From IMG/VR virus record IMGVR_UViG_3300030419_007641, positions 86,992 through 150,991 of that record: a stretch of DNA of 64,000 nucleotides; one strand, 5' to 3'. This document shows positions 6,195 to 57,397 of the stretch, one piece after another; position 1 is the first letter of the stretch, and each line of letters begins with the position of its first letter. The position numbers were made by a program, and so were the translations under genes. This stretch comes from a virus. The notes under the pieces were generated by a model. It searched no databases, had not been told where the DNA came from, and was given only the letters and a program-made list of their open reading frames with translations.

Positions 6195-7721
6195 ATGGCA
6201 AATATTACTATAGTAAAATTAAAAGTACGTCGTGGATCTAATGCGCAAAGGCAGACCATTGTTCTCGATCAAGGGGAATTAGGATACACAATAGACACAA
6301 AAAGATTATTTGTCGGTGATGGTTCGACAACAGGTGGGCATATTGTAGGTAATAAAGGATTAGGATCGTTTACCTCTTTAGAATCATTAGGAGATGTTGT
6401 AGGTGCACAAGTCGGGGATATTGGCTATGCAAATAGCTCATTGTGGATGATATCTTCTACACCTTATGAATGGAATTCGGGTTCAGCATACTTATCTGGG
6501 TTTGCTCATATCGGTACTAAAACAGAGGGTACAGGGGCAACTATTAATTTCAACAGTGATGGCAAGGTGGCTGTTAAAAAAAGCTCTTTAGATGTACAAT
6601 ATTTTAAATCAACATTCTTTGGAGGCGGTATATTATCGGCAGCTGATGGTTCTGCTAAAATTGATTTAAATACTGTCTATTTTGAATTATCCGGGGATGC
6701 TGCTAGTTCTAAGATATCGCCTAAACAGAATTCAATAACAGAAAGAGAGATAGCTACTACGGCTCTTTCTTCTGGTTTACAAGGAGGAAATGACGTACCG
6801 GTTAAGCTGTACATAGATACCGATACATTTGGGTTTGAACCAGACGGTAAATTAATATTAACAAATACAGGATCGAAAAGCGTACAATTTTCTAGCTTTA
6901 ATCCCGATGTAATAGGCGATGGATTAAAGCTAGATGATTCTACTAGAAAATTACAAGCACTGTTTCAAAAAACAAATAATTCTTTAAGTTTGGTAGACGG
7001 TGTATTATCAATTGCTGCAGGAGTTTCTGCTGGTGATACAGAGGAAAGTCAAGCACCGGAATTGCCATTTGTAACTGTTTCAGATGGAATTGTAACTGGA
7101 TTACAAAGCTCAATATATGATACAGCATCCGCACTAGGTCTATCAGGCAACGATACAGGGTCCGATGTACCTGTTGGAACTGTATTACCTCATGCTAAGA
7201 CGTTTCCTGGCGCGCCTCCCGGGTATCTACTTTGTGACGGTAAAGCATATGATAGTACTCTTAGCGAGTACAAAGATTTATACGACGTTATAGGTACTAG
7301 TTGGAACGAAGCATATGGTGCCTCAGCGCCTGCATCTGACTTTTTTAGAGTTCCTAATTTAACAGGTGGTAACGTTATGATGTATGGTGCAAATGCTGCA
7401 GCACCGGGCTCAACTCTCTATAAATTAAGCGCTACAGACTCAACAGCGTCGCATGTACTTTCAGTACAGGGATATAACTTTATAATTCGTTATACCAAAG
7501 GTACAGGTAGTTTTGATTTATTTAACGGAGCGCCCAATCAAGTTAGTAAAGGACTATTAGGGGCATACGATCAAAAGACTTATGAGTGCATGGATTCTTC
7601 AGGAGTACATATGCAACTAAGCTCTGCTGGATTTATGTTATTTGCACTATCCGGGGATGTGAGAAAAGATACTAGTAGTGAAACGTTTGATAAATTTGCT
7701 ATCCCTGTATATAACTGGTAA
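6195..7721 (+). CDS. Tail fibre / receptor-binding protein with Mtd-like N-terminus and collar domain
   Basis: Residues about 4-55 (LKVRRGSN...GELGYTIDTKRLFVGDG) match the N-terminal domain of the Bordetella phage major tropism determinant, a virion-attachment module common in fibre proteins. A collar domain follows at about 323-400 (PVGTVLPHA..., GYLLCDGKAYD, FFRVPNLTGG). The last 90 residues are specific and probably form the tip. It is paralogous to the next gene over the Mtd-like and collar domains but has a different C-terminus. The likely role is host recognition at the fibre or baseplate. Confidence 0.8.
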   Translation: MANITIVKLKVRRGSNAQRQTIVLDQGELGYTIDTKRLFVGDGSTTGGHIVGNKGLGSFTSLESLGDVVGAQVGDIGYANSSLWMISSTPYEWNSGSAYLSGFAHIGTKTEGTGATINFNSDGKVAVKKSSLDVQYFKSTFFGGGILSAADGSAKIDLNTVYFELSGDAASSKISPKQNSITEREIATTALSSGLQGGNDVPVKLYIDTDTFGFEPDGKLILTNTGSKSVQFSSFNPDVIGDGLKLDDSTRKLQALFQKTNNSLSLVDGVLSIAAGVSAGDTEESQAPELPFVTVSDGIVTGLQSSIYDTASALGLSGNDTGSDVPVGTVLPHAKTFPGAPPGYLLCDGKAYDSTLSEYKDLYDVIGTSWNEAYGASAPASDFFRVPNLTGGNVMMYGANAAAPGSTLYKLSATDSTASHVLSVQGYNFIIRYTKGTGSFDLFNGAPNQVSKGLLGAYDQKTYECMDSSGVHMQLSSAGFMLFALSGDVRKDTSSETFDKFAIPVYNW

Positions 7722-32142: not shown

Positions 32143-33828
32143 ATGGGTTCTTTTGATTATAGCGACGATTATAGTAGTTTTGATAATTTATTAAATCGGA
32201 CAACTTTATTAACTGAAGGTGGTAGGGGTCTAGGAGGTTATCACCCCGGGTTCGGTAGATCCTTAACGAGTAGATTAAAAGATGCGGGATCAGAAGCATT
32301 TACTAGAGACTCACGTAAATTTGTTGTGCATATATTATATGGGGCTAACATTCTTACAGACGAAGAAGAGAGTATGTTACGATCAGCTGGGCCTGCAGGG
32401 GGAAAAAATTACAGGTTGACCTTAGTACAAATTTTAGATAATCATAAGGATGAAATTATCGAGAGAGCAGATGAAATTAGTGATGCAATAGAGGAAAGAT
32501 TTCCAGCACTAGCAAATGAGATTTTAGGTAGGGATCCTGAAAGAATAAAAAATAATATAAGTAAAAGAAAGGTAAAATTAGCCAATAAGGAAATTGAGAA
32601 AGGAATAAAAAGTGGAGAGGACCCGGTTGATGTTATCACTGATGAGATGGAAAAGGTTTTAGCTAATGCTGCTGTATATACAGCTTTAACTAATGCACAA
32701 CGTAAGGTATCAGATAGGGCATTAGATGCAGTTGAAAAATATGCGATAGAGTATGTTAATAGTTTTAGTGATTTAGATAAATTAATTAACAACTTAAAAA
32801 CCAAATTTGATGACGAGGACTTTAATATGTTAGCGGATGAGCTATCCAATAGTTTATCGAGTATAAGGAGTAATGCTGGTATTGGTGAAGATAATGAAGA
32901 GCCGGAAGAAGATCCTGATGAGCCGGATGAAGAGTTTGCAAACGCACCAGGAGGCACGCCTGGGTCTTATGCTAGGGGTGAAGAAGGAAATGAAACAACT
33001 TCCATAGTGGATAGCTTAAATAATGATATGCGGAAAAAAAGATTGCTTGTTGAAAAAAGGAAAAATTGGGGTAAGTTTAGGTCTAATAGAAGACAAAAAT
33101 TGGTTGTTGAAAAAGATCTCAATGCTGCTGAAAGAAGGGCACTTCCTGATAGTGATTTTGCACTTCCTGGGAAGGGTAAAGGCCCTGAAGGTAAGCAAGC
33201 AGGTGCTTATCCTATTAATGATGAAGACCATGCACGTAATGCACTAGCAAGGGTGGCACAGCATGGTACCCCGGAGGAAAAGAAAAAGGTTCGTGCTGCT
33301 GTTGCAAGAAAATACCCTGATATTACACAGGAAGAAGAAGAATTTAACCCCAGAAGAGATGCTCCGGAACATAAAGAAGGAGATCCACACCCTGCAACAC
33401 GCGCTGGAGAAGAACTTATTGGTACAATGGTAAAATTTTGGCGAGATGGACCAATGTTCGGAGAAGTTGTTGATGTAGATGTAGAACAAGGTTTTGCAGT
33501 AGTTGAAACCGGTTTAGGGCATATGCGGGTGGGTCCGTCGGAAAAGTGGGTTGTTGAATTAGGTGAGCTCACTAAAGCTATTCGCCGCAAGCCGCGATCC
33601 ACCCAAACGCGGTTCCCGGAAACCAGGCCCGGCCGGCCAGGATTTCGCCCGGCTGAAGACAATAAAGAAAACACTCATAAAGAGTCCTACACTAGCAACT
33701 ACTTAAGTGAACAAAAGAGCAGTGATAAGCGCAATATTAAGCCAAGAACTGAAAATCAGTCTTTTAAAGAGAGATACAAGCCAAAGACACATTGGCAGTT
33801 AGAAGAGCTTAGACGAATGGGCCTTTAA
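32143..33828 (+). CDS. Probable head-associated protein with DUF6582-like segment (561 aa)
   Basis: The N-terminus has a leader ending in Leu23-Thr24-Glu25-Gly, fitting the prohead protease rule. Helical sequence with many Asp/Glu/Lys residues follows to about 250. Next come an acidic linker and, near residues 340-395, a segment (FALPGKG..., DHARNALARVAQHGTPEEKK, VRAAVARKYPDI) that I associate with phage proteins carrying DUF6582. A small beta domain (VKFWRDGPMFGEVVDVDV) and a basic tail complete the protein. An exact late promoter precedes it and it is flanked by minus-strand genes. A packaged or head-assembly role is inferred. Confidence 0.6.
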   Translation: MGSFDYSDDYSSFDNLLNRTTLLTEGGRGLGGYHPGFGRSLTSRLKDAGSEAFTRDSRKFVVHILYGANILTDEEESMLRSAGPAGGKNYRLTLVQILDNHKDEIIERADEISDAIEERFPALANEILGRDPERIKNNISKRKVKLANKEIEKGIKSGEDPVDVITDEMEKVLANAAVYTALTNAQRKVSDRALDAVEKYAIEYVNSFSDLDKLINNLKTKFDDEDFNMLADELSNSLSSIRSNAGIGEDNEEPEEDPDEPDEEFANAPGGTPGSYARGEEGNETTSIVDSLNNDMRKKRLLVEKRKNWGKFRSNRRQKLVVEKDLNAAERRALPDSDFALPGKGKGPEGKQAGAYPINDEDHARNALARVAQHGTPEEKKKVRAAVARKYPDITQEEEEFNPRRDAPEHKEGDPHPATRAGEELIGTMVKFWRDGPMFGEVVDVDVEQGFAVVETGLGHMRVGPSEKWVVELGELTKAIRRKPRSTQTRFPETRPGRPGFRPAEDNKENTHKESYTSNYLSEQKSSDKRNIKPRTENQSFKERYKPKTHWQLEELRRMGL

Positions 33829-34592
33829 GCGCACTTTTTGCACTTATTTTCTTTATAAAGCTTATCTAACTTTTCTTGTTGGACATACTGGATAGGATCT
33901 TCAAATCCAGCATCAATAAACCCCTTAACTCTCATACTACTTGATGGAGTTGTAGCATCAGCTAATTTATCTTCTCTGTTGGAGTAGCATGTCCATGTAT
34001 CCTCATATTTAACTCCTAATTTAATTCCCTTTTTAACAATTGCAGCCTTACACATACTTAACAAGGGGGCTTCGATCTCAATTCTCTTTTCTCTGTTCAA
34101 ATCTGTTAACTTGTTAATACAATTAACAAACTGTGAACTACCATCCCAATATCCAGCTAATGAATCAACTTGAGCGGCACCATACCAGACTGTATGACAT
34201 CCAATACCCTCAGCATATGAAGCGCAAATTGACAAAAACATCATATTACGAAATGGTACATATGATACCGGTTGCGCATCACCTGCCATTTCACTAATAT
34301 CCGGATTGTCAATACTAGTATTAGTTAAAGATGAAGTTGGAGCAATATCTTTAATATAACTTACATCTAATACCTTATTAGTAACATTTATATAATTAAA
34401 TTTACTATATTTGTCACGAAAATTACTAATTTGTTTTTGAACACACTCTAATTCTCTCTTATGCCTCTGCCCGTAATCAAAAGTTACAGTATGTATATCA
34501 TTGAATCCTTGATCCGCTGCCATATACAGCAAAACTGCAGAATCCATTCCCCCACTAAGCGTTAATACTATTTTTTTCTTTCTTGTTGCCAT
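33825..34592 (-). CDS. queC: QueC-like 7-cyano-7-deazaguanine synthase with altered Cys site
   Basis: A 255-residue PP-loop ATPase. SGGMDS (residues 13-18) is the ATP-binding loop, and the YVPFRNMMFLSICASYAE segment is typical of QueC, which makes preQ0 from CDG. The usual zinc site is unusual here. Cys202 (TWTCYSN) is kept, but the following CGxCxxC region reads ADATTPSSSMR (211-221) with no Cys. Instead Cys251 and Cys254 occur at the extreme C-terminus (CKKCA). It could be a normal QueC with relocated ligands or a diverged enzyme. It lies next to uvsX, with the class II amidotransferase one gene away. Confidence 0.8.
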   Translation of the reverse strand: MATRKKKIVLTLSGGMDSAVLLYMAADQGFNDIHTVTFDYGQRHKRELECVQKQISNFRDKYSKFNYINVTNKVLDVSYIKDIAPTSSLTNTSIDNPDISEMAGDAQPVSYVPFRNMMFLSICASYAEGIGCHTVWYGAAQVDSLAGYWDGSSQFVNCINKLTDLNREKRIEIEAPLLSMCKAAIVKKGIKLGVKYEDTWTCYSNREDKLADATTPSSSMRVKGFIDAGFEDPIQYVQQEKLDKLYKENKCKKCA

Positions 34593-46107: not shown

Positions 46108-46500
46108 ATGGAATCAAGAGGCAGATTTGAACAGTTATTCTTTAAAGTGTTAAAAGAGAACAATACCGCGGGGGCAGGTGGGTCTTTAGGTGAACCTGAC
46201 GTACCGTATGCTAATGATGATGCGAGAATACCTAAATTATTAGGACAAGGTAAGGTTCAAACACGTAAAGGATCCACTGGTGGTAAAAAGAATAAAAAGA
46301 AAAAAACTGATGGTTTAGATGAGGTGTATCTAACAGGGAAAGAAAATGAAGAAGGTGTCCCCGAGGAAGATGCTGAAAAAAAGAAAGCTGATAGATGTAA
46401 GCGTAAAGCAGACTCCGTTTATGGTAAAAAGACGTCTGCTTATAAGTCTGGTGCTATTGTAAGGTGTAGGCAAGGTAAAATCTGGAAGAAAAAGAAGTGA
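46108..46500 (+). CDS. Basic, probable internal head protein (130 aa)
   Basis: The leader ends in FFKVLKE (Leu15-Lys16-Glu17), identical to that of the protein at 22968 and fitting the prohead protease rule. Then come a Lys-rich linker, an acidic stretch, and a C-terminal segment (CKRKADSVYGKKTSAYKSGAIVRCRQGKIWKKK, about residues 98-130) with two Cys, resembling short basic domains of marine phage proteins. It probably binds DNA in the head. It is the first gene of the plus-strand late group. Confidence 0.6.
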   Translation: MESRGRFEQLFFKVLKENNTAGAGGSLGEPDVPYANDDARIPKLLGQGKVQTRKGSTGGKKNKKKKTDGLDEVYLTGKENEEGVPEEDAEKKKADRCKRKADSVYGKKTSAYKSGAIVRCRQGKIWKKKK

Positions 46501-46502
46501 GC

Positions 46503-46928
46503 ATGTCCCAAAGAGAAGTTCTTGAAGCTAGTGATTCGTTACGTCAGTGGTTTGATAGAGGTGGTACCGATCCTAAGACTGGTAAGAAGTTTAAAGGGTG
46601 GATAAATTGCAAGACAGGGGGCCCTTGTGGTCGTAAATCTAAAAAATCTGGTGGTAGTTACCCGGCTTGTCGACCGACTAAAGCAGCTTGCAAGAGTATT
46701 AAGGGTAAGATGTATAAGAAGAAGGGACCGAAGCGGGTTGACTGGAAGAAAAAAAAGAAAAAGAGCGAAAACGCTGAAGATGTACACAAGCCTGTTAAGC
46801 CTGGTATCTTAAAAAAGAGATTAGGTAAGTTATCTTGCAGTAAAGTGAGGGGCGCAAAGGGTAAGTTAAAGGATAAAGGCACTCATTACGCAAAAGCACT
46901 ACAGCGCTATTTAAATTATCACTGTTAA
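46503..46928 (+). CDS. Lys/Cys-rich basic protein, DUF5872-like (141 aa)
   Basis: The segment LRQWFDRGG...WINCKTGGPCGRKSKKSGGSYPACRP (about residues 13-58) resembles the DUF5872 pattern in phage proteins. A second Cys-containing basic segment ends in HYAKALQRYLNYHC. It is very rich in Lys and Cys and may bind DNA or zinc. I prefer the ATG at 46503 to the GTG at 46497, which overlaps the previous stop. No protease-type leader is seen. Confidence 0.55.
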   Translation: MSQREVLEASDSLRQWFDRGGTDPKTGKKFKGWINCKTGGPCGRKSKKSGGSYPACRPTKAACKSIKGKMYKKKGPKRVDWKKKKKKSENAEDVHKPVKPGILKKRLGKLSCSKVRGAKGKLKDKGTHYAKALQRYLNYHC

Positions 46929-46936
46929 CATAAATA
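46929..46936 (+). promoter_or_regulatory. Late promoter box CATAAATA
   Basis: Starts directly after the stop of the upstream gene and lies 5 bases before the ATG at 46942. Confidence 0.55.
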
Positions 46937-46941
46937 TTGTT

Positions 46942-47406
46942 ATGCAATTCGACGAATTAGTACAACGGCTTTTAAAAGAAAATTGGAAAAAGGGTACATC
47001 AAAAGCTCCGAAGGGTGATTCATATGATATGGCTAGAGGAGGCGCGCCTAGTCGAGTAGATGCAGCTAGTGACGGTAGCGGTGGTAGATATAGACGTACA
47101 CGCCCGCCAAGCGCACCGTCAAAGAAGACTCATGGGGAGATGGAAGAGATTCCTGCTGAAGATGCTGAAAAAGTCGATAAAGATCGCATGAAATGTAACA
47201 GTCCTCGTCGTACTTCAGGTGGTTCTAAGAAGTTTGTTGTTAAGGCTTGTAAAGACGGTAAAGAAAAGATTGTTCGCTTCGGTGATCCAAACATGAGAAT
47301 CAAGAAGAGTAATCCTAAGCGTCGTAAGTCTTTCCGCGCTCGTCATAAGTGTGATCAAAAGAAGGATAAGTTCTCTGCTGGTTATTGGTCTTGTAAGAAG
47401 TGGTAG
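46942..47406 (+). CDS. Basic, probable internal head protein (154 aa)
   Basis: The leader MQFDELVQRLLKE ends in Leu11-Lys12-Glu13. The C-terminal 50 residues (IVRFGDPNMRIKKSNPKRRKSF, RARHKCDQKK, YWSCKKW) match a recurring domain in marine phage proteins. The middle is Arg/Ser/Pro-rich. I infer a DNA-binding protein of the capsid interior. A late promoter precedes it. Confidence 0.6.
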   Translation: MQFDELVQRLLKENWKKGTSKAPKGDSYDMARGGAPSRVDAASDGSGGRYRRTRPPSAPSKKTHGEMEEIPAEDAEKVDKDRMKCNSPRRTSGGSKKFVVKACKDGKEKIVRFGDPNMRIKKSNPKRRKSFRARHKCDQKKDKFSAGYWSCKKW

Positions 47407-47801
47407 ATTTAGGTCATTGGAAGGGAGTCCTCGAAGAGAGCGTAGACTTACCTTACGGATTCATTTATAAGATAACAAATCTTACTAATGACAAGAAGTA
47501 TATCGGTAAAAAGCAGTGCCAGACTGTTAAAAAACGACCACCATTAAAGGGTCGAAAGAATAAGCGACACGAAACCGTAGAAACTGACTGGAAAACCTAC
47601 ACTTCTTCTTCAAACGAACTCAATGAACATATAAGAGTACACGGAAAAAATAATTTTAAGTTTGAAATCTTGAGATGGTGTGATTCAAAATGGGAGTTGA
47701 GTTATTATGAAGCTAAGCTACAATTTGAAGAAGAAGTATTGTTAAAAGATGACTACTATAATGGAATCATCAACCTTAGAATCGGTAAACGACGAAACTA
47801 G
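47400..47801 (+). CDS. GIY-YIG family endonuclease-like protein
   Basis: A 133-residue protein with the GIY-YIG signature as GFIYKITN (Gly20-Phe-Ile-Tyr23) and KKYIGKK (Tyr34-Ile-Gly36). An Arg/Lys-rich loop and a Glu-containing helix (YYEAKLQFEEEVL) follow. Members cut or nick DNA; many in T4-like phages are homing enzymes, others are packaging- or repair-linked. The start is a GTG overlapping the previous gene, because no ATG precedes the motif. Confidence 0.7.
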   Translation: MVDLGHWKGVLEESVDLPYGFIYKITNLTNDKKYIGKKQCQTVKKRPPLKGRKNKRHETVETDWKTYTSSSNELNEHIRVHGKNNFKFEILRWCDSKWELSYYEAKLQFEEEVLLKDDYYNGIINLRIGKRRN

Positions 47802-48269: not shown

Positions 48270-48725
48270 ATGAGTAAGTTTCTTGAATTGGTAGAAGAAA
48301 ACAATCCCGAAAAAGATATTGACGCCCTTACAGATGCTAAAAGATCTTTACAGCGACTTTTATTAAAGAGTAAAATTGAAGCACACGGAAAGGCTTTTGA
48401 AGATATAATACGTGTAAGGCTAGATGACGGTCGAGTTGTTGAGCTAGAGGTTAAAGATGTTCAACACCCAGTTGAAGATCAGGAAGTGACAATAGATAAA
48501 GGAAATACTGAATTTAATGTAGATGATGCTGTTGAGGGTCTTGGAGCTAAGGCAGCAACGGGACTAAAGGGGTTTGGCGCCAAAATACTTGGTACTGCAG
48601 CGCAAAACGCAAAGGCTGCTGTAGAGGAGCGTGAAAAGTTGGGTAAAGATGCCACAGGATTATATAAAGCTAAAAATAGACAGTTTAAGAAAGCTATACA
48701 GGACGAAAAAAAGGGTGGATATTAA
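48270..48725 (+). CDS. Probable internal head protein (151 aa)
   Basis: The short leader MSKFLELVEENN contains Leu7-Val-Glu9, fitting the prohead protease rule. A helical region, a small beta hairpin (IIRVRLDDGRVVELEVKD) and an Ala/Lys-rich C-terminal helix follow. The function is unknown. It begins a run of closely spaced genes to 52846. Confidence 0.5.
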   Translation: MSKFLELVEENNPEKDIDALTDAKRSLQRLLLKSKIEAHGKAFEDIIRVRLDDGRVVELEVKDVQHPVEDQEVTIDKGNTEFNVDDAVEGLGAKAATGLKGFGAKILGTAAQNAKAAVEEREKLGKDATGLYKAKNRQFKKAIQDEKKGGY

Positions 48726-48729
48726 CAGT

Positions 48730-49305
48730 ATGAAGACCTTAAGATTAATAGAGCGTTACATGAGACTGCTCGAGCAAGATGATGCTGAAGTAGAAAAAGT
48801 TGATGTTGTAGAAACTGAGCCAGAGCCAGTTGATCCAGGTCAGCAGGCAATTGCTGAGTTGATAGCTGCTGCGTTTGCGTATCCTCCGACAAATGATGAT
48901 TCGGCTACAATTGAAGAGATAGAGGAATTAATAGTGGGTACACATAATCAAGCGCCGAATACATCAGATACAAATCCAAGAGAATTAATTATTAGTATAA
49001 TAGGCAAATTACCGGAAAAATTACAAAAAATATATACTGTAGGCCCTGCAGAAGGAGCAAACCCTTATATTACACCTGAGTCGGAGATACCGTTATCCCA
49101 ATTATTAGCTAATGCATTTAAATACAGGCCAACTACACATGAAGGTCTTATAGCTACAGCTGTTGTTAACCAGTATCTCGGACCTGGTATTGAGGATGAG
49201 GATCGAGATCCTCAAAAAGTTATCGAGACAATACAAAGACTTCTAGAATTTACAGACGAGCCTCTGGAAGATGAACTCCTAGCTATGAATTTAGACGAAA
49301 AATAA
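48730..49305 (+). CDS. Probable internal head protein, acidic (191 aa)
   Basis: I start it at the ATG 48730, just after the previous stop. The leader MKTLRLIERYMRLLEQDD ends in Leu13-Leu14-Glu15. The rest is acidic and shows two similar segments (AELIAAAFAYPPTNDD near 40-55 and SQLLANAFKYRPTTHE near 128-143), an internal repeat. No enzymatic motif is seen. Four bases separate it from the nuclease-like gene downstream. Confidence 0.5.
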   Translation: MKTLRLIERYMRLLEQDDAEVEKVDVVETEPEPVDPGQQAIAELIAAAFAYPPTNDDSATIEEIEELIVGTHNQAPNTSDTNPRELIISIIGKLPEKLQKIYTVGPAEGANPYITPESEIPLSQLLANAFKYRPTTHEGLIATAVVNQYLGPGIEDEDRDPQKVIETIQRLLEFTDEPLEDELLAMNLDEK

Positions 49306-49309
49306 TATT

Positions 49310-50656
49310 ATGGACTGGTCATTAGAAAAGATATATAGCCAACAAGTACGTGGTAATATTCCACCGCGTAGACATCTCCATGTGTTGAGTGAGCAAGACG
49401 GGGACGAAAATACTCCGCAAGAGCAGAGGCAAGTAGAGCATACTGTCGATAAGATAAAGGATTTAATTGATGATATCGATATAGATCAGAGCGACCCTGA
49501 TCAAATGAAAAAGCTTTTTAATATTATTTCTGGGTTTGAAGGTTATAGGCCCATTAAACGTACATTAGAGGGTAAGGGGTTTAATCCTAAAGTATTAAAG
49601 AAATATTCTAATGAAATACTATCTTTAATAGTAGATTTACCTAGAGAGGAAAAACAACAATTTTTTGAATTTTTAGAAAGAGGGAGTGATGTTCAGTTCC
49701 CGGAAGCTGAAGATGGTAATTTATATGATTTATTAACTGATGTGGCAGGGGTATCACGTGGTGTTGCTGAAGAGATTATGAAACACACCGGACAAGATGC
49801 TGCTAAGCGGGGTGTTGGAATGGGTGAGTTGGCATTAGCTTTATTATTTTCGAATATAGATTCTGCTGGCGGAGTTAAGAGTAAAGAAGTCGCTGCAGCG
49901 GAAGGTGAAAGAGTTAATTATAGCGCTTCAACTATGAGGACGGGATCTAAAAATTATGATCAACGCGCGGTCGATGCATGGAAGCAAAGTAAAGCGAGAC
50001 TAGAAGCAGCAAAAAAATTAGGTATAAAGGGTGATCTTGAATTAAATGGAAAAGAATTTGAAATTAAAGGAGAAAATGCATCTCTCGGACCAACATCTGA
50101 TGCTATACAGCCGGCAAAAACCAAACCAGCTGCTTTACAGTTCTTAACAGATAGAATGGGTATAACTGTCACAGGTAACGGTTATGAGGTTGGTGGAAAG
50201 CCTGCTGGTAGTCAATTAGGTCATTTTCCAATAGCAGTATCTGAAGCTTATAAGTTAGCTTCAAATGAAGGAAAGGCTCGAGAGTTTGAACAGTCTTTTA
50301 AAGACTATTTAAAACAATTTGGCAAGTTTGATGATGATGTATTGAATAGTAGTGTATATAATACAATCAATTTATCTAATCCAGGTACTATTCAGAGAGG
50401 TATTGCTGTTTTAAATTTATATAGATACACTAAAGAAGAGGGATTTCCATATTTTATGGCTCATGATGTGGGAGCCGGGGGTGCAGGTACAGGTAACTAT
50501 GTATTTGCTGCTGGTGAAACTCCGGAAGAAATAGCTCGTAAAATATATAATAACAGAAAAGTAAAATTCGAAAAAGTAGCCTATAACGGATTGAGACCGA
50601 GAATCGGATTTTTACCTACATTTGTTGAGGATAATGAAATTGTTGAAAAGTTATGA
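49310..50656 (+). CDS. PD-(D/E)XK nuclease-like protein with head-targeting leader (448 aa)
   Basis: The N-terminus carries Leu26-Ser27-Glu28-Gln, a possible protease site. A nuclease-like core follows: GMGELALALLF (Glu173), then GDLELNGKEFEIKG (241-254) with Asp242 and Glu251-x-Lys253 spaced as in PD-(D/E)XK enzymes. Its stop overlaps the start of the ligase-like gene (ATGA), so the two are translationally coupled. I infer a DNA-cutting enzyme that may be carried in the head. Alternatives are a structural protein with a degenerate fold, or a packaging-related nuclease. Confidence 0.55.
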   Translation: MDWSLEKIYSQQVRGNIPPRRHLHVLSEQDGDENTPQEQRQVEHTVDKIKDLIDDIDIDQSDPDQMKKLFNIISGFEGYRPIKRTLEGKGFNPKVLKKYSNEILSLIVDLPREEKQQFFEFLERGSDVQFPEAEDGNLYDLLTDVAGVSRGVAEEIMKHTGQDAAKRGVGMGELALALLFSNIDSAGGVKSKEVAAAEGERVNYSASTMRTGSKNYDQRAVDAWKQSKARLEAAKKLGIKGDLELNGKEFEIKGENASLGPTSDAIQPAKTKPAALQFLTDRMGITVTGNGYEVGGKPAGSQLGHFPIAVSEAYKLASNEGKAREFEQSFKDYLKQFGKFDDDVLNSSVYNTINLSNPGTIQRGIAVLNLYRYTKEEGFPYFMAHDVGAGGAGTGNYVFAAGETPEEIARKIYNNRKVKFEKVAYNGLRPRIGFLPTFVEDNEIVEKL

Positions 50657-51861
50657 AGAGCTTTAAACTATATTTCGAACATTACTTAGAGCTTCTAGAA
50701 GAAGGTAAGGCTAATACGCACCTTACACACTTAGAGGAACTGATTCTTACAAGAGGTAAGGGTGGTTACGACCAGGCTAAGGGCTTTTTAACCAATTTAC
50801 TTGGTCATTTACAAGGAAAGAGCAAGAGAAAGATCGGTACTACGGTAAAATGGGATGGGGCCCCTGCTATTTTTGTTGGAAAACACCCCGATAACGGTAA
50901 ATTCTTTGTTGGTACCAAGTCTATCTTTAATAAAGAGCCTAAAATTAACTATACTGAACAAGATATAGAGGTTAATCACGGACATGCACCTGGTTTAGCG
51001 GACAAGCTTAAAAAAGCTTTAAAAAATTTACGTAAGCTAGGTATTAAGAACATAATGCAGGGTGATTTTATGTTTGATTCATCTTCGGTTAAGAAAGAGA
51101 ACATAGACGACGAGGAACATTATACATTTCAGCCTAATACGATCAAATATGCTGTAGAAGCTGACTCGGATCTTGGAAGACAAATAGCTAACTCTGTATT
51201 TGGTATCATATTTCATACAGAATATGATGGTTTAGATAGCCCCGCATCATTTGGTGCTAAAGTTAACCGATTAAACAAGGTTCCAGGTGTTTGGTTTGAC
51301 GATGCTTACTTTAAAGATGATACTGGTGTTGTAAATTTAACAGATGACGAGGGAAAGCAGGTTAAAGACTTAATAAAAACTGCTGATTCCATTAAAATAG
51401 ATTACAAGGACTTACCTTCTGATCTTCTCAACCCTTATATTAATACGGAGATTCGAGAAGGTAAGTTCTTAAACGATCCAGAAGAGTCTTATAGGAACTT
51501 TATTGAGTGGTATAACACTCGCATCAATAAAGAGATAGATAAGAGAAAATCTGTAGCTGGAAAGCAAAGATTAGAAGAAACTCTTAAGCAGAAGACGGCG
51601 CAGTTTGAAGCTCAGAAGGATGACATAGTTAATTTGTTTAAGGTTAGTAGCTTATTGTCACAAGCTAAGCAGATCTTTATTAACAAGTATAATAATGCTG
51701 TATATAACACTAAGCACTTCATCGATGAAGGTGAGGGAGTGTTAAGAGTAACTGCTCCTGAGGGATATGTTGCAGTTGATAGGGATGGTAATGCTGTTAA
51801 ACTGGTTAACAGATTAGATTTTAGTTCAGCTAACTTTCAAAAAGATAAACCCGGGTCATGA
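50653..51861 (+). CDS. Ligase-like nucleotidyltransferase (KxDG family) with head-targeting leader (402 aa)
   Basis: The leader MKSFKLYFEHYLELLEEG has Leu-x-Glu sites. The core has motif I Lys66-Trp-Asp-Gly69 (VKWDGAPAIF), a GTKSIF segment (87-92), QGDFMF near 136 (motif III-like), SVFGIIFHTEYDG near 181 (motif IIIa-like), and a C-terminal PEGYVAV...VKLVN pattern like motifs IV/V. These are marks of the DNA/RNA ligase and capping superfamily; the overall type resembles phage proteins with DUF6267. It should form a lysine-nucleotide adduct. It is coupled by ATGA overlaps to the nuclease-like gene before and the TxGH gene after. Confidence 0.6.
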   Translation: MKSFKLYFEHYLELLEEGKANTHLTHLEELILTRGKGGYDQAKGFLTNLLGHLQGKSKRKIGTTVKWDGAPAIFVGKHPDNGKFFVGTKSIFNKEPKINYTEQDIEVNHGHAPGLADKLKKALKNLRKLGIKNIMQGDFMFDSSSVKKENIDDEEHYTFQPNTIKYAVEADSDLGRQIANSVFGIIFHTEYDGLDSPASFGAKVNRLNKVPGVWFDDAYFKDDTGVVNLTDDEGKQVKDLIKTADSIKIDYKDLPSDLLNPYINTEIREGKFLNDPEESYRNFIEWYNTRINKEIDKRKSVAGKQRLEETLKQKTAQFEAQKDDIVNLFKVSSLLSQAKQIFINKYNNAVYNTKHFIDEGEGVLRVTAPEGYVAVDRDGNAVKLVNRLDFSSANFQKDKPGS

Positions 51862-52430
51862 GAACATTTAGAGAGTATTTTGAAGATATGGAGACAAGAG
51901 TTGAGCGAATCGCTCTTCTCCCCGGTGGCTTTAAACCACCTACAAAGGGTCACTTTAATGCTTTAAGGTATTTGCTTGATGACGCAGATAAGGGTATTGT
52001 TTTTATTGGTGGTAAGGTACGTGACGGTATTACACCTGAACAATCAGAAAAAATATGGAACATATATGCAAAGTATTTTGATAAGCCTGTTAAGGTTGTA
52101 AGTGTACCAAACCCGGTAAAGGCAGTTTATGACTTTGCTGATGAGCATTTAGACACTACATTGAAGGTTGGTGCTGGCGGCCCTCGTGAAAATGAAGACG
52201 GTACAGTTGACGAAGGTGACATTAAACGTTACAAGTACTTTGAAGATAATGTTGAAAAATATCCATATGTTAATGTAGTTCAAATACCAAGTCAAGAGAA
52301 AGGCATGCGTGGATCTACAGTTCGAAAAGAGATTGAGAAAGATATTGAGCAGGGCTTGGATTATTTTGTACCAGAAGAGGTTTCTATTGAAGATAAGGAA
52401 TCTATAGAAGAAATATTAACAGGCAATTAA
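51858..52430 (+). CDS. Nucleotidylyltransferase, TxGH family (190 aa)
   Basis: PGGFKPPTKGHF (residues 22-33) holds Thr29-x-Gly31-His32 of the cytidylyl/adenylyltransferase superfamily, and MRGSTVRKE near 150-158 matches the second nucleotide-binding motif (G/S-S-T-x-x-R). Relatives include NMN adenylyltransferase (NadM) and CTP:phosphocholine-type enzymes; the substrate is unknown. The leader MRTFREYFED resembles the T4 internal-protein leader, but the Glu follows Tyr-Phe rather than Leu-x. Its start overlaps the ligase-like stop by four bases. Confidence 0.7.
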   Translation: MRTFREYFEDMETRVERIALLPGGFKPPTKGHFNALRYLLDDADKGIVFIGGKVRDGITPEQSEKIWNIYAKYFDKPVKVVSVPNPVKAVYDFADEHLDTTLKVGAGGPRENEDGTVDEGDIKRYKYFEDNVEKYPYVNVVQIPSQEKGMRGSTVRKEIEKDIEQGLDYFVPEEVSIEDKESIEEILTGN

Positions 52431-52870: not shown

Positions 52871-53311
52871 ATGAAGAAATTTAAACAGTTTTTTGTTGAA
52901 AAGCAGGTATTAGGCCTCATTGAGTTCTTTGACTTAGATGAGGTAGGTAAGATACCTGCTAAACTTGATTCAGGTAACGGTGCTTACAATGTCATAAACG
53001 GTCAAGACATACAAATTCAAGGAAATAAGGTGTTTTTTAGGACGGAAAACGGTAAAACTCTCTTAAAGGACAAAAAAGGCGACATTGATATTAACTATGG
53101 TGAGGGTAAAATAACGACGAGACCTGTTGTAGAGTTTGATTTTAAAATTGGTAAAAAGGAATTTAAAGGAATTCCATTTAGTATCGCTGATAGATCAACA
53201 AATCTGTATAAAATACTTGTCGGTAAGGACTTTATTGAGAATCATCTTGATGCTCTTATAGATGTCAGCCAAGAAAACATTGCTGACGAGGATTATGAAG
53301 CAGAATACTAA
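52871..53311 (+). CDS. Retropepsin-like / RimK-associated aspartic protease-like protein (146 aa)
   Basis: After the leader MKKFKQFFVEK, the sequence KIPAKLDSGNGAYNVI places Asp33-Ser-Gly where retropepsins have D-T/S-G. The C-terminal part FSIADRSTNLYKILVGKDFI matches the ADRS...VLLGRD pattern of the RimK-associated (ATP-dependent zinc) protease family. Retropepsin-like enzymes act as dimers. A role in processing virion or host proteins is possible; the leader suggests packaging. The gene is convergent with the next gene and overlaps it by four bases. Confidence 0.6.
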   Translation: MKKFKQFFVEKQVLGLIEFFDLDEVGKIPAKLDSGNGAYNVINGQDIQIQGNKVFFRTENGKTLLKDKKGDIDINYGEGKITTRPVVEFDFKIGKKEFKGIPFSIADRSTNLYKILVGKDFIENHLDALIDVSQENIADEDYEAEY

Positions 53312-53860: not shown

Positions 53861-54508
53861 TTATTTTTGCCAATCATTTACGAATTGATAAAATTCACCT
53901 CTTGTAGCTACATCACCTAAGAAGTCTTCACTCAATCTACTTGTCTTCATTTCACAACCGTCATGTTTAATACCTCTAAGACAAGCGCAAGTGTGAGTAG
54001 CAGATATCATAACAGCAACTCCTTTGTTACCTTCACAGATTTCGTCAATAGCTTTATGAATTTGCATTGTAAGACCTTCTTGAATTTGTGGCCTTCTACC
54101 ATAATGCTCAACAATGCGGTTAAGCTTACTTAATCCAATAACTTTACCTTCCTTAGATGGAATATAAGCTACATGAGCTCTACCGGTAAATGGTAAGTGA
54201 TGATGTGAGCAAAAAGACTTAACAGGAATACCACCTTGAAAGACCATTCCATCGTAACCGTCAGAAGGAAAAGCAGTTACATTAGGTAAATCATTATAAC
54301 ACCCAGCAGCTAAGTCATTTACAAAGGCTTTAGCTACACGTTTAGGGGTATTACTGCTATTAGGATCATTTCGCCAATCGATTCGTAGAGCATCGAGATA
54401 TTTCTCATAAGCTGTAGCTGCATCTTCAATTACTTTAAGTTTTTCTTCTTCTGTTAAAGGCATGTTACCATTTGCGGTGGGTAATTTTGTAATTATAGTA
54501 CGATCCAT
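53861..54508 (-). CDS. folE: GTP cyclohydrolase I
   Basis: A 215-residue FolE. Zinc ligands fit Cys100 and His103 (FCSHHHLPF) and Cys174 (THTCACLRG). GKVIGLSKLNRIVEHY and RRPQIQEGLT match the active site and oligomer core. It converts GTP to dihydroneopterin triphosphate, the first step of 7-deazaguanine synthesis. QueD and QueE lie close by and QueC is at 33825, so the preQ0 route appears complete in this window. TATAAT lies 8 bases before the start. Confidence 0.92.
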   Translation of the reverse strand: MDRTIITKLPTANGNMPLTEEEKLKVIEDAATAYEKYLDALRIDWRNDPNSSNTPKRVAKAFVNDLAAGCYNDLPNVTAFPSDGYDGMVFQGGIPVKSFCSHHHLPFTGRAHVAYIPSKEGKVIGLSKLNRIVEHYGRRPQIQEGLTMQIHKAIDEICEGNKGVAVMISATHTCACLRGIKHDGCEMKTSRLSEDFLGDVATRGEFYQFVNDWQK

Positions 54509-55220: not shown

Positions 55221-55865
55221 ATGAGCGCTTACACTTCATCAAAACAATTCGAATTAGGATCAACAGCATTTCGTCAATGGAAAGCGGATCATAGTCACTG
55301 CAAATATATTCATGGATATCAACTCAAAACACAACTAACATTTGGTTGCCACAGTCTAGACGATAAAAATTGGTGTGTTGATTTTGGTGGTTTAGATACA
55401 CTTAAAAAAACTCTAAGAAATCAATTTGATCATACTGTCGTTGTTGCTGGAGATGATCCTGCTTTAGAGGCATTTGAGGAATTAAGTGAAAAGGGTATTA
55501 TACAACTTCGAATAATGGTTGAAGGAGTAGGTGTTGAAAAATTTGCAGAATTCGTATTTAAGACAGCTGATGCATTTGTTGATGAAGCTTCAGAAGGTAG
55601 GTGTTTTGTTGTAAAGGCCAAAGTGACGGAGCATGAAGATAATTGGGCTGAATATACAAAAGAGGACAAAGAGGCAGCTAGTAACCATGAATGTTGCCAA
55701 GATACTACAGATACTACAAAACAAGAAACAGATCCAGCACCAGTACCCGAAAATCAGTCTAAGCCGAATAATCCACATCCACAGGCAGGTCGTCAAGGAG
55801 CTAATGTAGGTCCAAATGTAACGCCTGGTAAAGGTAACTGGTTTGCTGGTACATCCTGGGGTTAA
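55221..55865 (+). CDS. queD: QueD-like 6-carboxytetrahydropterin synthase
   Basis: Residues 1-145 match the QueD/PTPS family in the form common in phages: AFRQWKADHSHCKYIHGY holds Cys27 and His31. Later DFGGLDTLKKTL and NQFDHTVVV contain the conserved Asp and His. One expected zinc ligand is changed: the usual HGH reads HGY (31-33). The last 60 residues are a Pro/Asn/Gln-rich tail not needed for the fold. It converts dihydroneopterin triphosphate to 6-carboxytetrahydropterin, between FolE and QueE. Confidence 0.8.
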   Translation: MSAYTSSKQFELGSTAFRQWKADHSHCKYIHGYQLKTQLTFGCHSLDDKNWCVDFGGLDTLKKTLRNQFDHTVVVAGDDPALEAFEELSEKGIIQLRIMVEGVGVEKFAEFVFKTADAFVDEASEGRCFVVKAKVTEHEDNWAEYTKEDKEAASNHECCQDTTDTTKQETDPAPVPENQSKPNNPHPQAGRQGANVGPNVTPGKGNWFAGTSWG

Positions 55866-56594: not shown

Positions 56595-56629
56595 GTATTA
56601 TTATTTAGTTGAAAAACACCATTATTAGC

Positions 56630-56635
56630 TATAAT
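56630..56635 (+). promoter_or_regulatory. TATAAT box before queE
   Basis: A -10-like element 6 bases before the ATG at 56642. This spacing matches other TATAAT sites here and supports that start. Confidence 0.4.
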
Positions 56636-56641
56636 ATGTTA

Positions 56642-57397
56642 ATGGATTGTGATAAAGAAACTTTAATAGTATCTGATGATAAGGCATTTTATACACTAGA
56701 AGGTGAAGGTGAATATGTAGGTGAACCTTCTGTGTTTTTTAGATTGTCTATGTGTAATCTAACATGTCAAGGGTTTGCTTCAGAAGATTCGCCTTATGGA
56801 TGTGATTCATATATTTCTTGGTCTGTTAAAAACAAAATGACTTTTAACGAAATATTTGAATTCATGAAAGAAAACAAATTTATTGAAAAACTTAAAGCTA
56901 ATGCAATTCTAAAAATAACAGGTGGCGAGCCACTAATTCAACAAAAACAATTACTAAAATTTATAGAAGTATTTATCGATAAATATTGTTTTATTCCACG
57001 AATTGATTTTGAAACTAATGCTACATTAATGCCGGATAAGAGGTGGAAAGAAGAATATAGAGCTACATTTACTACATCACCAAAATTAACTACCAATGGA
57101 GATCCTGAAGAAAGATCTTATAAGCCTGAAGTATTAAAGTGGCATTCTGATAATGGATCCGGATTTAAGTTTGTTATTGCTACATCTGAAGACATAGAGG
57201 AAATTTGGCGCAAATATGTCGAAGATGATAAGGGTATTAATGTACCTTTAGATCGTATTTGGTTTATGCCATGTTGTGGTAGCAGGAAAGAACATGTAGA
57301 GAAGGCAGTTGCAGTAGCAGAGTATGCTAAAGCTATGAATGTAAAATTCTCACCCAGATTGCATCTGTTAATTTGGGATATGGCATTAAAAGTTTAA
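56642..57397 (+). CDS. queE: QueE-like 7-carboxy-7-deazaguanine synthase (radical SAM)
   Basis: About 251 residues. Cys38 and Cys42 (SMCNLTCQG) and a third Cys54 after an inserted loop would bind the iron-sulphur cluster. GGEPL (94-98) is the SAM-binding motif, and DFETNATLMP and TTSPKL match QueE. The third step of preQ0 synthesis converts 6-carboxytetrahydropterin to CDG. The Cys spacing (x3 then x11) differs from the usual x3, x2 but resembles other phage forms. I chose ATG 56642; ATG 56636 or TTG 56609 are alternatives. Confidence 0.85.
   Translation: MDCDKETLIVSDDKAFYTLEGEGEYVGEPSVFFRLSMCNLTCQGFASEDSPYGCDSYISWSVKNKMTFNEIFEFMKENKFIEKLKANAILKITGGEPLIQQKQLLKFIEVFIDKYCFIPRIDFETNATLMPDKRWKEEYRATFTTSPKLTTNGDPEERSYKPEVLKWHSDNGSGFKFVIATSEDIEEIWRKYVEDDKGINVPLDRIWFMPCCGSRKEHVEKAVAVAEYAKAMNVKFSPRLHLLIWDMALKV

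Follow-up and report, generated by a model that had tools for sequence, protein, structure and literature searches.

We analysed a 64,000-nucleotide window comprising bases 86,992-150,991 of a 196,877-base IMG/VR virus record (IMGVR_UViG_3300030419_007641), which derives from a T4-like myovirus whose major capsid protein is ~34% identical to cyanophage gp23. The window contains three consecutive open reading frames (ORFs), here called genes A, B and C (Table 1), which a preceding sequence-only reading had described as a coupled nuclease-like, ligase-like and nucleotidylyltransferase-like trio that may be carried in the virion. The four-base overlaps on which the coupling was based (50653-50656 between A and B, and 51858-51861 between B and C) are present as claimed. 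Moreover, the A-B-C order is kept in dozens of loci, with many domain fusions in addition, and linkage of the three genes therefore exceeds chance.

Table 1. Features of the A-B-C trio, followed by other genes of the window (positions counted from the first base of the window).
Feature	Position	Strand	Description
Gene A	49310-50656	+	ORF, 448 aa; PD-(D/E)XK-type nuclease candidate; hypervariable slot
Leader of A, 28 residues	49310-49393	+	ends VL(S/G)E; putative capsid-targeting/prohead-protease site
Exchanged payload of A	49405-50651	+	without DNA match to contig L009
Glu173 codon of A	49826-49828	+	predicted helix Glu of PD-(D/E)XK core; invariant
Asp242...Glu251-x-Lys253 of A	50033-50068	+	predicted catalytic GDL...ExK stretch; invariant; strands in model
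Gene B	50653-51861	+	ORF, 402 aa; DUF6267 (PF19782); RNA-ligase/capping-superfamily-like
Leader of B, MKSFKLYFEHYLELLEE	50653-50703	+	T4 internal-protein-like
KxDG (Lys66-Trp-Asp-Gly69) of B	50848-50859	+	motif I; invariant
Glu370-Gly371...Lys383 of B	51760-51801	+	motif IV/V-like; invariant in deep alignment
Gene C	51858-52430	+	ORF, 190 aa; HIGH-superfamily nucleotidyltransferase (NMNAT/PPAT/CTP_transf-like)
Leader of C, MRTFREYFEDME	51858-51893	+	same type as B leader
TKGH motif of C, residues 29-32	51942-51953	+	(H/T)xGH-type
GSTVR motif of C, residues 152-156	52311-52325	+	SGTxxR-type
QueC	33825-34592	-	E=5.9e-53
GTP cyclohydrolase I	53861-54508	-	E=8.8e-46
PTPS/QueD-like	55221-55865	+	E=6.9e-16
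Radical-SAM/QueE-like 4Fe-4S protein	56609-57397	+	

Gene A very probably encodes a protein with a PD-(D/E)XK nuclease fold, for which nuclease activity is predicted. When the ORFs lying upstream of a related B in IMG/VR loci were aligned (38 sequences, mean identity 18%), the sole invariant columns were Tyr9, Gly170, Glu173, Gly241, Asp242, Glu251 and Lys253; the residues from which a PD-(D/E)XK pattern had been proposed (Glu173, Asp242 and Glu251-x-Lys253) thus exist and are invariant in 38 divergent homologues. The AlphaFold2 model of A (predicted local distance difference test score 80; predicted template modelling score 0.74) places Glu173 within a helix (residues 171-179) and Asp242 and Glu251-x-Lys253 at adjoining strands (243-245 and 248-253), with a further helix at residues 269-283. 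A resembles restriction-like PD-(D/E)XK nucleases in its E, D, ExK signature and matching secondary structure, but differs in its N- and C-terminal regions, which are unlike those of known members. Weak, non-significant Foldseek matches in PDB include NaeI and DXO. No fitting family was found for A in Pfam, PHROG or PADLOC, and tblastn retrieved zero relatives among 50,697 phage records.

Comparison with two related contigs demonstrated that A is an exchangeable, hypervariable cassette, swapped independently of B. Against contig L009, DNA flanking the A payload is 91-96% identical and the leader region (49217-49404) 80% identical, with breakpoints near 49404 and 50652, while protein identity is 93% over the A leader, 20% over the remainder of A, and 98% for both B and C. 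L075 presents the reverse case (A 99%, C 97% and B 60% identical). These opposite replacements indicate that A and B alleles move independently, with the order A-B-C kept. Free shuffling of the genes, which had been named as an outcome that would speak against a joint system, was accordingly found for alleles of A and B only, and gene order was retained.

Two other explanations of A bear on this exchange. Overlapping genes, and a conserved leader ahead of a variable payload that recalls polymorphic toxins, would suit a toxin-immunity pair in which A is a toxin nuclease and B its allele-specific immunity partner. However, B holds an enzyme-like invariant motif set, and we rejected the pairing as very improbable because A has been replaced without B and B without A, so that there is no allele matching in either L075 or L009. 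Alternatively, A could be a homing or otherwise selfish endonuclease cassette lying ahead of an unrelated B-C operon, given its exchange between close relatives and the homing-type GIY-YIG gene nearby (47400-47801). We consider this improbable too, albeit slightly less so, as no empty slot was seen among unfused close relatives with upstream sequence available, the payload lies in frame behind a conserved leader, and the families found in the slot are not homing endonuclease families.

Variation of the slot extends well beyond close relatives. Among 16 isolated cyano-, pelagi- and methylophages, the ORF directly before DUF6267 (the family of B) belongs to one of at least eight groups that are unrelated to each other; six of these are PHROGs of unknown function. 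For three slot families, DUF6267 is the next gene in all loci long enough to assess (41/41), while in a fourth family A is followed directly by C, and B is absent. Searches of the cyanophage A-slot proteins using Pfam, PHROG and PADLOC yielded no nuclease family. A (P)D-(n)-(E/S)xK pattern occurs in 14 of the 16 isolated-phage slot proteins, compared with 3 of 33 window ORFs and 10% of shuffles, a post hoc comparison in that the pattern was defined after viewing the sequences and several regular-expression matches lie elsewhere than the stretch judged by eye. In the HTVC008M family, the stretch is within the most conserved part of the protein. As a sign of nucleases in the slot, the pattern is suggestive only.

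B is a full-length member of DUF6267 (equivalent to phrog_455 and T4-GC 71), matching all 376 of 376 model positions (Pfam E=5.6e-97; 325.9 bits versus a cut-off of 27). The family is without a described function, is present in 407 phage records, mainly of cyanophages, and was not named in the literature searched. Residues K66, D68, G69, K89, D138, E370, G371 and K383 are invariant in a deep alignment spanning pelagi-, methylo-, cyano- and Stenotrophomonas phages. The motifs follow the order known from ligases and capping enzymes (I KxDG, III, IV EG, V K), and a long helical region lies between them. The KxDG at Lys66 and the further ligase/capping motifs ascribed to B are hence present, and invariant as far as cyanophage homologues, with modest support for the fold. 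In a BFVD structure search, the first named neighbour outside the family was the Atu_ph07 RNA ligase (E=2.5e-3, probability 0.93), followed by weaker matches to further RNA ligases and a capping enzyme. Relative to RNA ligases (Rnl1/Rnl2, Atu_ph07) and capping enzymes, B shares KxDG, an acidic motif III, EG and K in order, but differs by a ~120-residue helical insertion and an N-terminal H23xxH26xE28 motif. We regard the ligase-like assignment and fold as reasonably probable, with enzyme activity predicted. The ligase-like motif set of DUF6267 and the putative nuclease slot are both proposals of this analysis.

C almost certainly has a nucleotidyltransferase fold of the HIGH superfamily, nearest to nicotinamide mononucleotide adenylyltransferase (NMNAT) and PPAT, and the corresponding activity is predicted. 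A profile of C homologues matched the archaeal NMNAT MJ0541 (E=1e-4) and the PPAT 3nd5 (E=1.6e-4) in PDB, and no substrate-specific family match was obtained. Of the two motifs attributed to C, TxGH is present as TKGH, whereas a literal STxxR is absent; GSTVR aligns there with the SGTxxR of relatives, so the position given was right and the letters were not. C shares its superfamily, and its position after DUF6267, with the T4-GC190 'cytitidyltransferase' and NMNAT-like cyanophage virion proteins, but is shorter (190 aa) and too distant for direct tblastn.

Many IMG/VR contigs encode DUF6267 and a CTP_transf_like domain (PF01467, E down to 1.6e-10) as a single fused protein, the latter domain lying at either the N or the C terminus of DUF6267. 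Since fusions occur in many phages and in both orders, B and C probably act in one pathway, which we hold with moderate confidence. A pattern search for a nuclease domain within the fused nucleotidyltransferase-DUF6267 proteins found none. Three of the fused forms (L076, L082 and L088; single proteins of 1000-1300 aa) have a HAD-phosphatase-like stretch between the two domains (by eye, Pfam weak) that recalls end-healing enzymes. Elsewhere, an extra ORF of ~165-172 aa sits between B and C (L031, L033, L036, L038, L041, L100, and L075 at 6263-6781), has its own MKTFREYFEE-type leader, and comes in two unrelated versions.

The fusions also bear on whether the trio could instead comprise three cargo or auxiliary enzymes with only a loose connection, with C raising NAD+ (as an NMNAT) after injection, B repairing broken RNA (tRNA) in the manner of RNA ligases, and A acting as a separate nuclease, such that they share packaging and an operon but no common substrate. 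The nearest solved relatives of C are indeed NMNAT and PPAT, A and B alleles are swapped independently, virion NMNAT-like proteins have been read as NAD+ boosters (PMC9602691, PMC10665884), and jumbo phages possess separate NAD and RNA-repair systems (PMC7824862). However, the many B-C fusions in both orders favour one pathway, and the A slot adjoins B or C even across very distant phages. Overall, we judge loosely linked enzymes to be a rather unlikely explanation.

Leaders of A and B end in Leu-x-Glu, as had been noted (A ...VLSE; B ...LLEE), while that of C is without LxE. B and C have in common an M-[KR]-x-F-[KR]-x-Y-[FY]-E type of leader, and are alike only over their first dozen residues. 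The A leader is of its own type, sharing only the LxE ending; among those relatives that have the nearest B, leader identity is mostly 68-100% and payload identity only ~20-25%. The region of the A leader has low confidence in the AlphaFold2 model. Where the domain is internal to a fused protein or begins it, the B/C leaders are lacking, and fused homologues starting MEKIALLPGG are without the C leader. Using a profile of marine B/C leaders, T4 ipI, ipIII and ipII ranked 1, 2 and 3 among 65 T4 proteins. A profile built from window-clade leaders alone placed ipI first by a wide margin and ipIII and ipII fifth and sixth of 65. Top scores within the window were those of B and C (by construction), followed in third place by the product of 52871-53311. 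Between 22 and 56 kb, a hydrophobic-hydrophobic-x-Glu motif at residues 6-32 was found in 10 of 16 plus-strand versus 5 of 30 minus-strand genes (p=0.003; post hoc). The same genome encodes an S77 prohead protease gene, and candidate (L/I)xE sites are present in A and B.

C-type enzymes have been detected in the virion proteomes of S-SM1 (T4-GC190 protein SSM1_190, encoded directly after SSM1_189, a T4-GC71/DUF6267 member) and S-SZBM1 (_140, directly after the DUF6267 protein _141), and virions of S-CREM2 and S-SCSM1 also contain them. The S-CREM2 authors cautioned that such proteins could be contaminants of CsCl-purified particles. B/C leaders are the same type of short N-terminal signal as in T4 IPI, IPII and IPIII, and T4 internal proteins, like the trio, carry very diverse payloads behind a conserved signal. 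The cargo differs: T4 IPI* is a small restriction-enzyme inhibitor, whereas the trio would deliver three enzymes encoded in fixed order, namely a nuclease, one of ligase-like type and a HIGH nucleotidyltransferase. T4 Alt is an ADP-ribosyltransferase. Taken together, packaging of the trio proteins in the capsid appears likely.

We propose that the trio is a capsid-delivered module, combining a fast-evolving nuclease (A) with a conserved ligase-like/nucleotidyltransferase pair (B-C), for counter-defence or competition, a reading to which we give roughly even weight. A short N-terminal signal would direct each of A, B and C into the prohead core, the S77 prohead protease would probably remove it, and the mature enzymes, carried along with the DNA, would be the first to reach the cell. 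A would act as a PD-(D/E)XK endonuclease on nucleic acid of the host, a plasmid, a defence system or a competing phage. The variable A would thereby meet a changing target, while the constant B-C performs nucleotidyl chemistry on ends or cofactors. B would be ligase/capping-like, forming a lysine-nucleotidylated intermediate, and would probably work with C in one nucleotidyl-transfer path that serves repair or counter-defence, with nucleic-acid ends or NAD-type cofactors as its substrates. Cassette exchange and fast evolution are as expected of an arms-race enzyme, and we consider this role for A an evenly balanced proposition. Co-operation of the trio, as supposed in the sequence-only reading, agrees with adjacency and the B-C fusions, and capsid targeting by the leaders with the T4 internal-protein-like profile match and the C homologues detected in published virion proteomes. 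More tentatively, and with odds against it, the trio may be a phage-borne, injected 'restriction' module. Most marine T4-like phages would then keep, beside a constant B-C pair, an interchangeable nuclease recruited from one of many unrelated PD-(D/E)XK families. This enzyme would cut nucleic acid foreign to the phage, be it of the host, a plasmid or a rival phage, and the DNA of the injecting phage itself would escape cutting or be resealed.

Several results weigh against a capsid-delivered nuclease and ligase-like module. Foldseek fold searches gave no significant PDB match for A and nothing significant in PDB for B, the TM-score of B with its best RNA-ligase neighbour in BFVD was low (~0.25), and hhalign of B versus T4 Rnl2 homologues returned no profile match. 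Several cyanophage A-slot proteins are without a typical T4-like leader, and the S-SZBM1 virion mass-spectrometry list includes neither its A (_142) nor its B (_141). Furthermore, the trio sits after uvsX and gp41 in HTVC008M and cyanophages (in the latter also with mazG), a setting that also fits an unpackaged intracellular replication, recombination and repair module, with A as a resolvase-like nuclease and B as a ligase. Phages do have PD-(D/E)XK resolvases (PMC7824862). Nevertheless, hypervariable cassettes are not typical of core repair enzymes, the leaders resemble those of T4 internal proteins, and C has been detected in virions, and we consider such a repair role doubtful, more so than loosely linked enzymes.

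Other genes of the region have comparable leaders or touch on related functions. The ORF just downstream of the trio (52871-53311, + strand) joins a B/C-type leader to a retropepsin/aspartic 'ATP-dependent zinc protease'-like domain (AKLDSGN; PF05618 E=1e-4, below cut-off), and its product is possibly a further packaged enzyme or cargo. Three consecutive small, very basic proteins are encoded at 46108-47406 (+ strand), two with leaders ending VLKE/LLKE; these are candidate DNA-condensing internal head proteins. The GIY-YIG endonuclease gene just upstream of the trio (47400-47801, + strand) is SegE-type (PF19835 E=3.9e-32), has a leader-like VLEE, and may be a homing gene or cargo. The start of the ORF at 48631-49305 (+ strand) is probably Met34 (48730), which would remove the overlap with the upstream gene and give the leader MKTLRLIERYMRLLEQ. 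Genes of the preQ0 (7-deazaguanine) pathway lie around the trio (QueC, GTP cyclohydrolase I, PTPS/QueD-like and QueE-like, Table 1). Searches of the genome revealed no TGT and no DpdA, and for that reason 7-deazaguanine self-protection stays speculation. By eye, a run of ~250-aa ORFs at 57-63.5 kb of the window and 151-157 kb of the genome resembles glycosyltransferases and sugar enzymes.

Individually, the parts of the trio add new members or variants to known superfamilies, and the proposed mode of delivery has its precedent in T4. In the literature searched, the coverage of which excluded most subscription journals, we found no description of a locus where unrelated nuclease-like proteins fill a fixed position next to DUF6267 and a nucleotidyltransferase. 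DUF6267 with an adjoining NMNAT/cytidylyltransferase gene occurs in hundreds of cyanophage records, and also in pelagi- and methylophages, where these genes are annotated as hypothetical or metabolic. If the pair is the constant half of a packaged module with a swappable nuclease, a widespread, unexplained locus of common ocean myoviruses could be tested as a system for counter-defence or competition, and reports of 'virion NMNAT' would gain a new reading.

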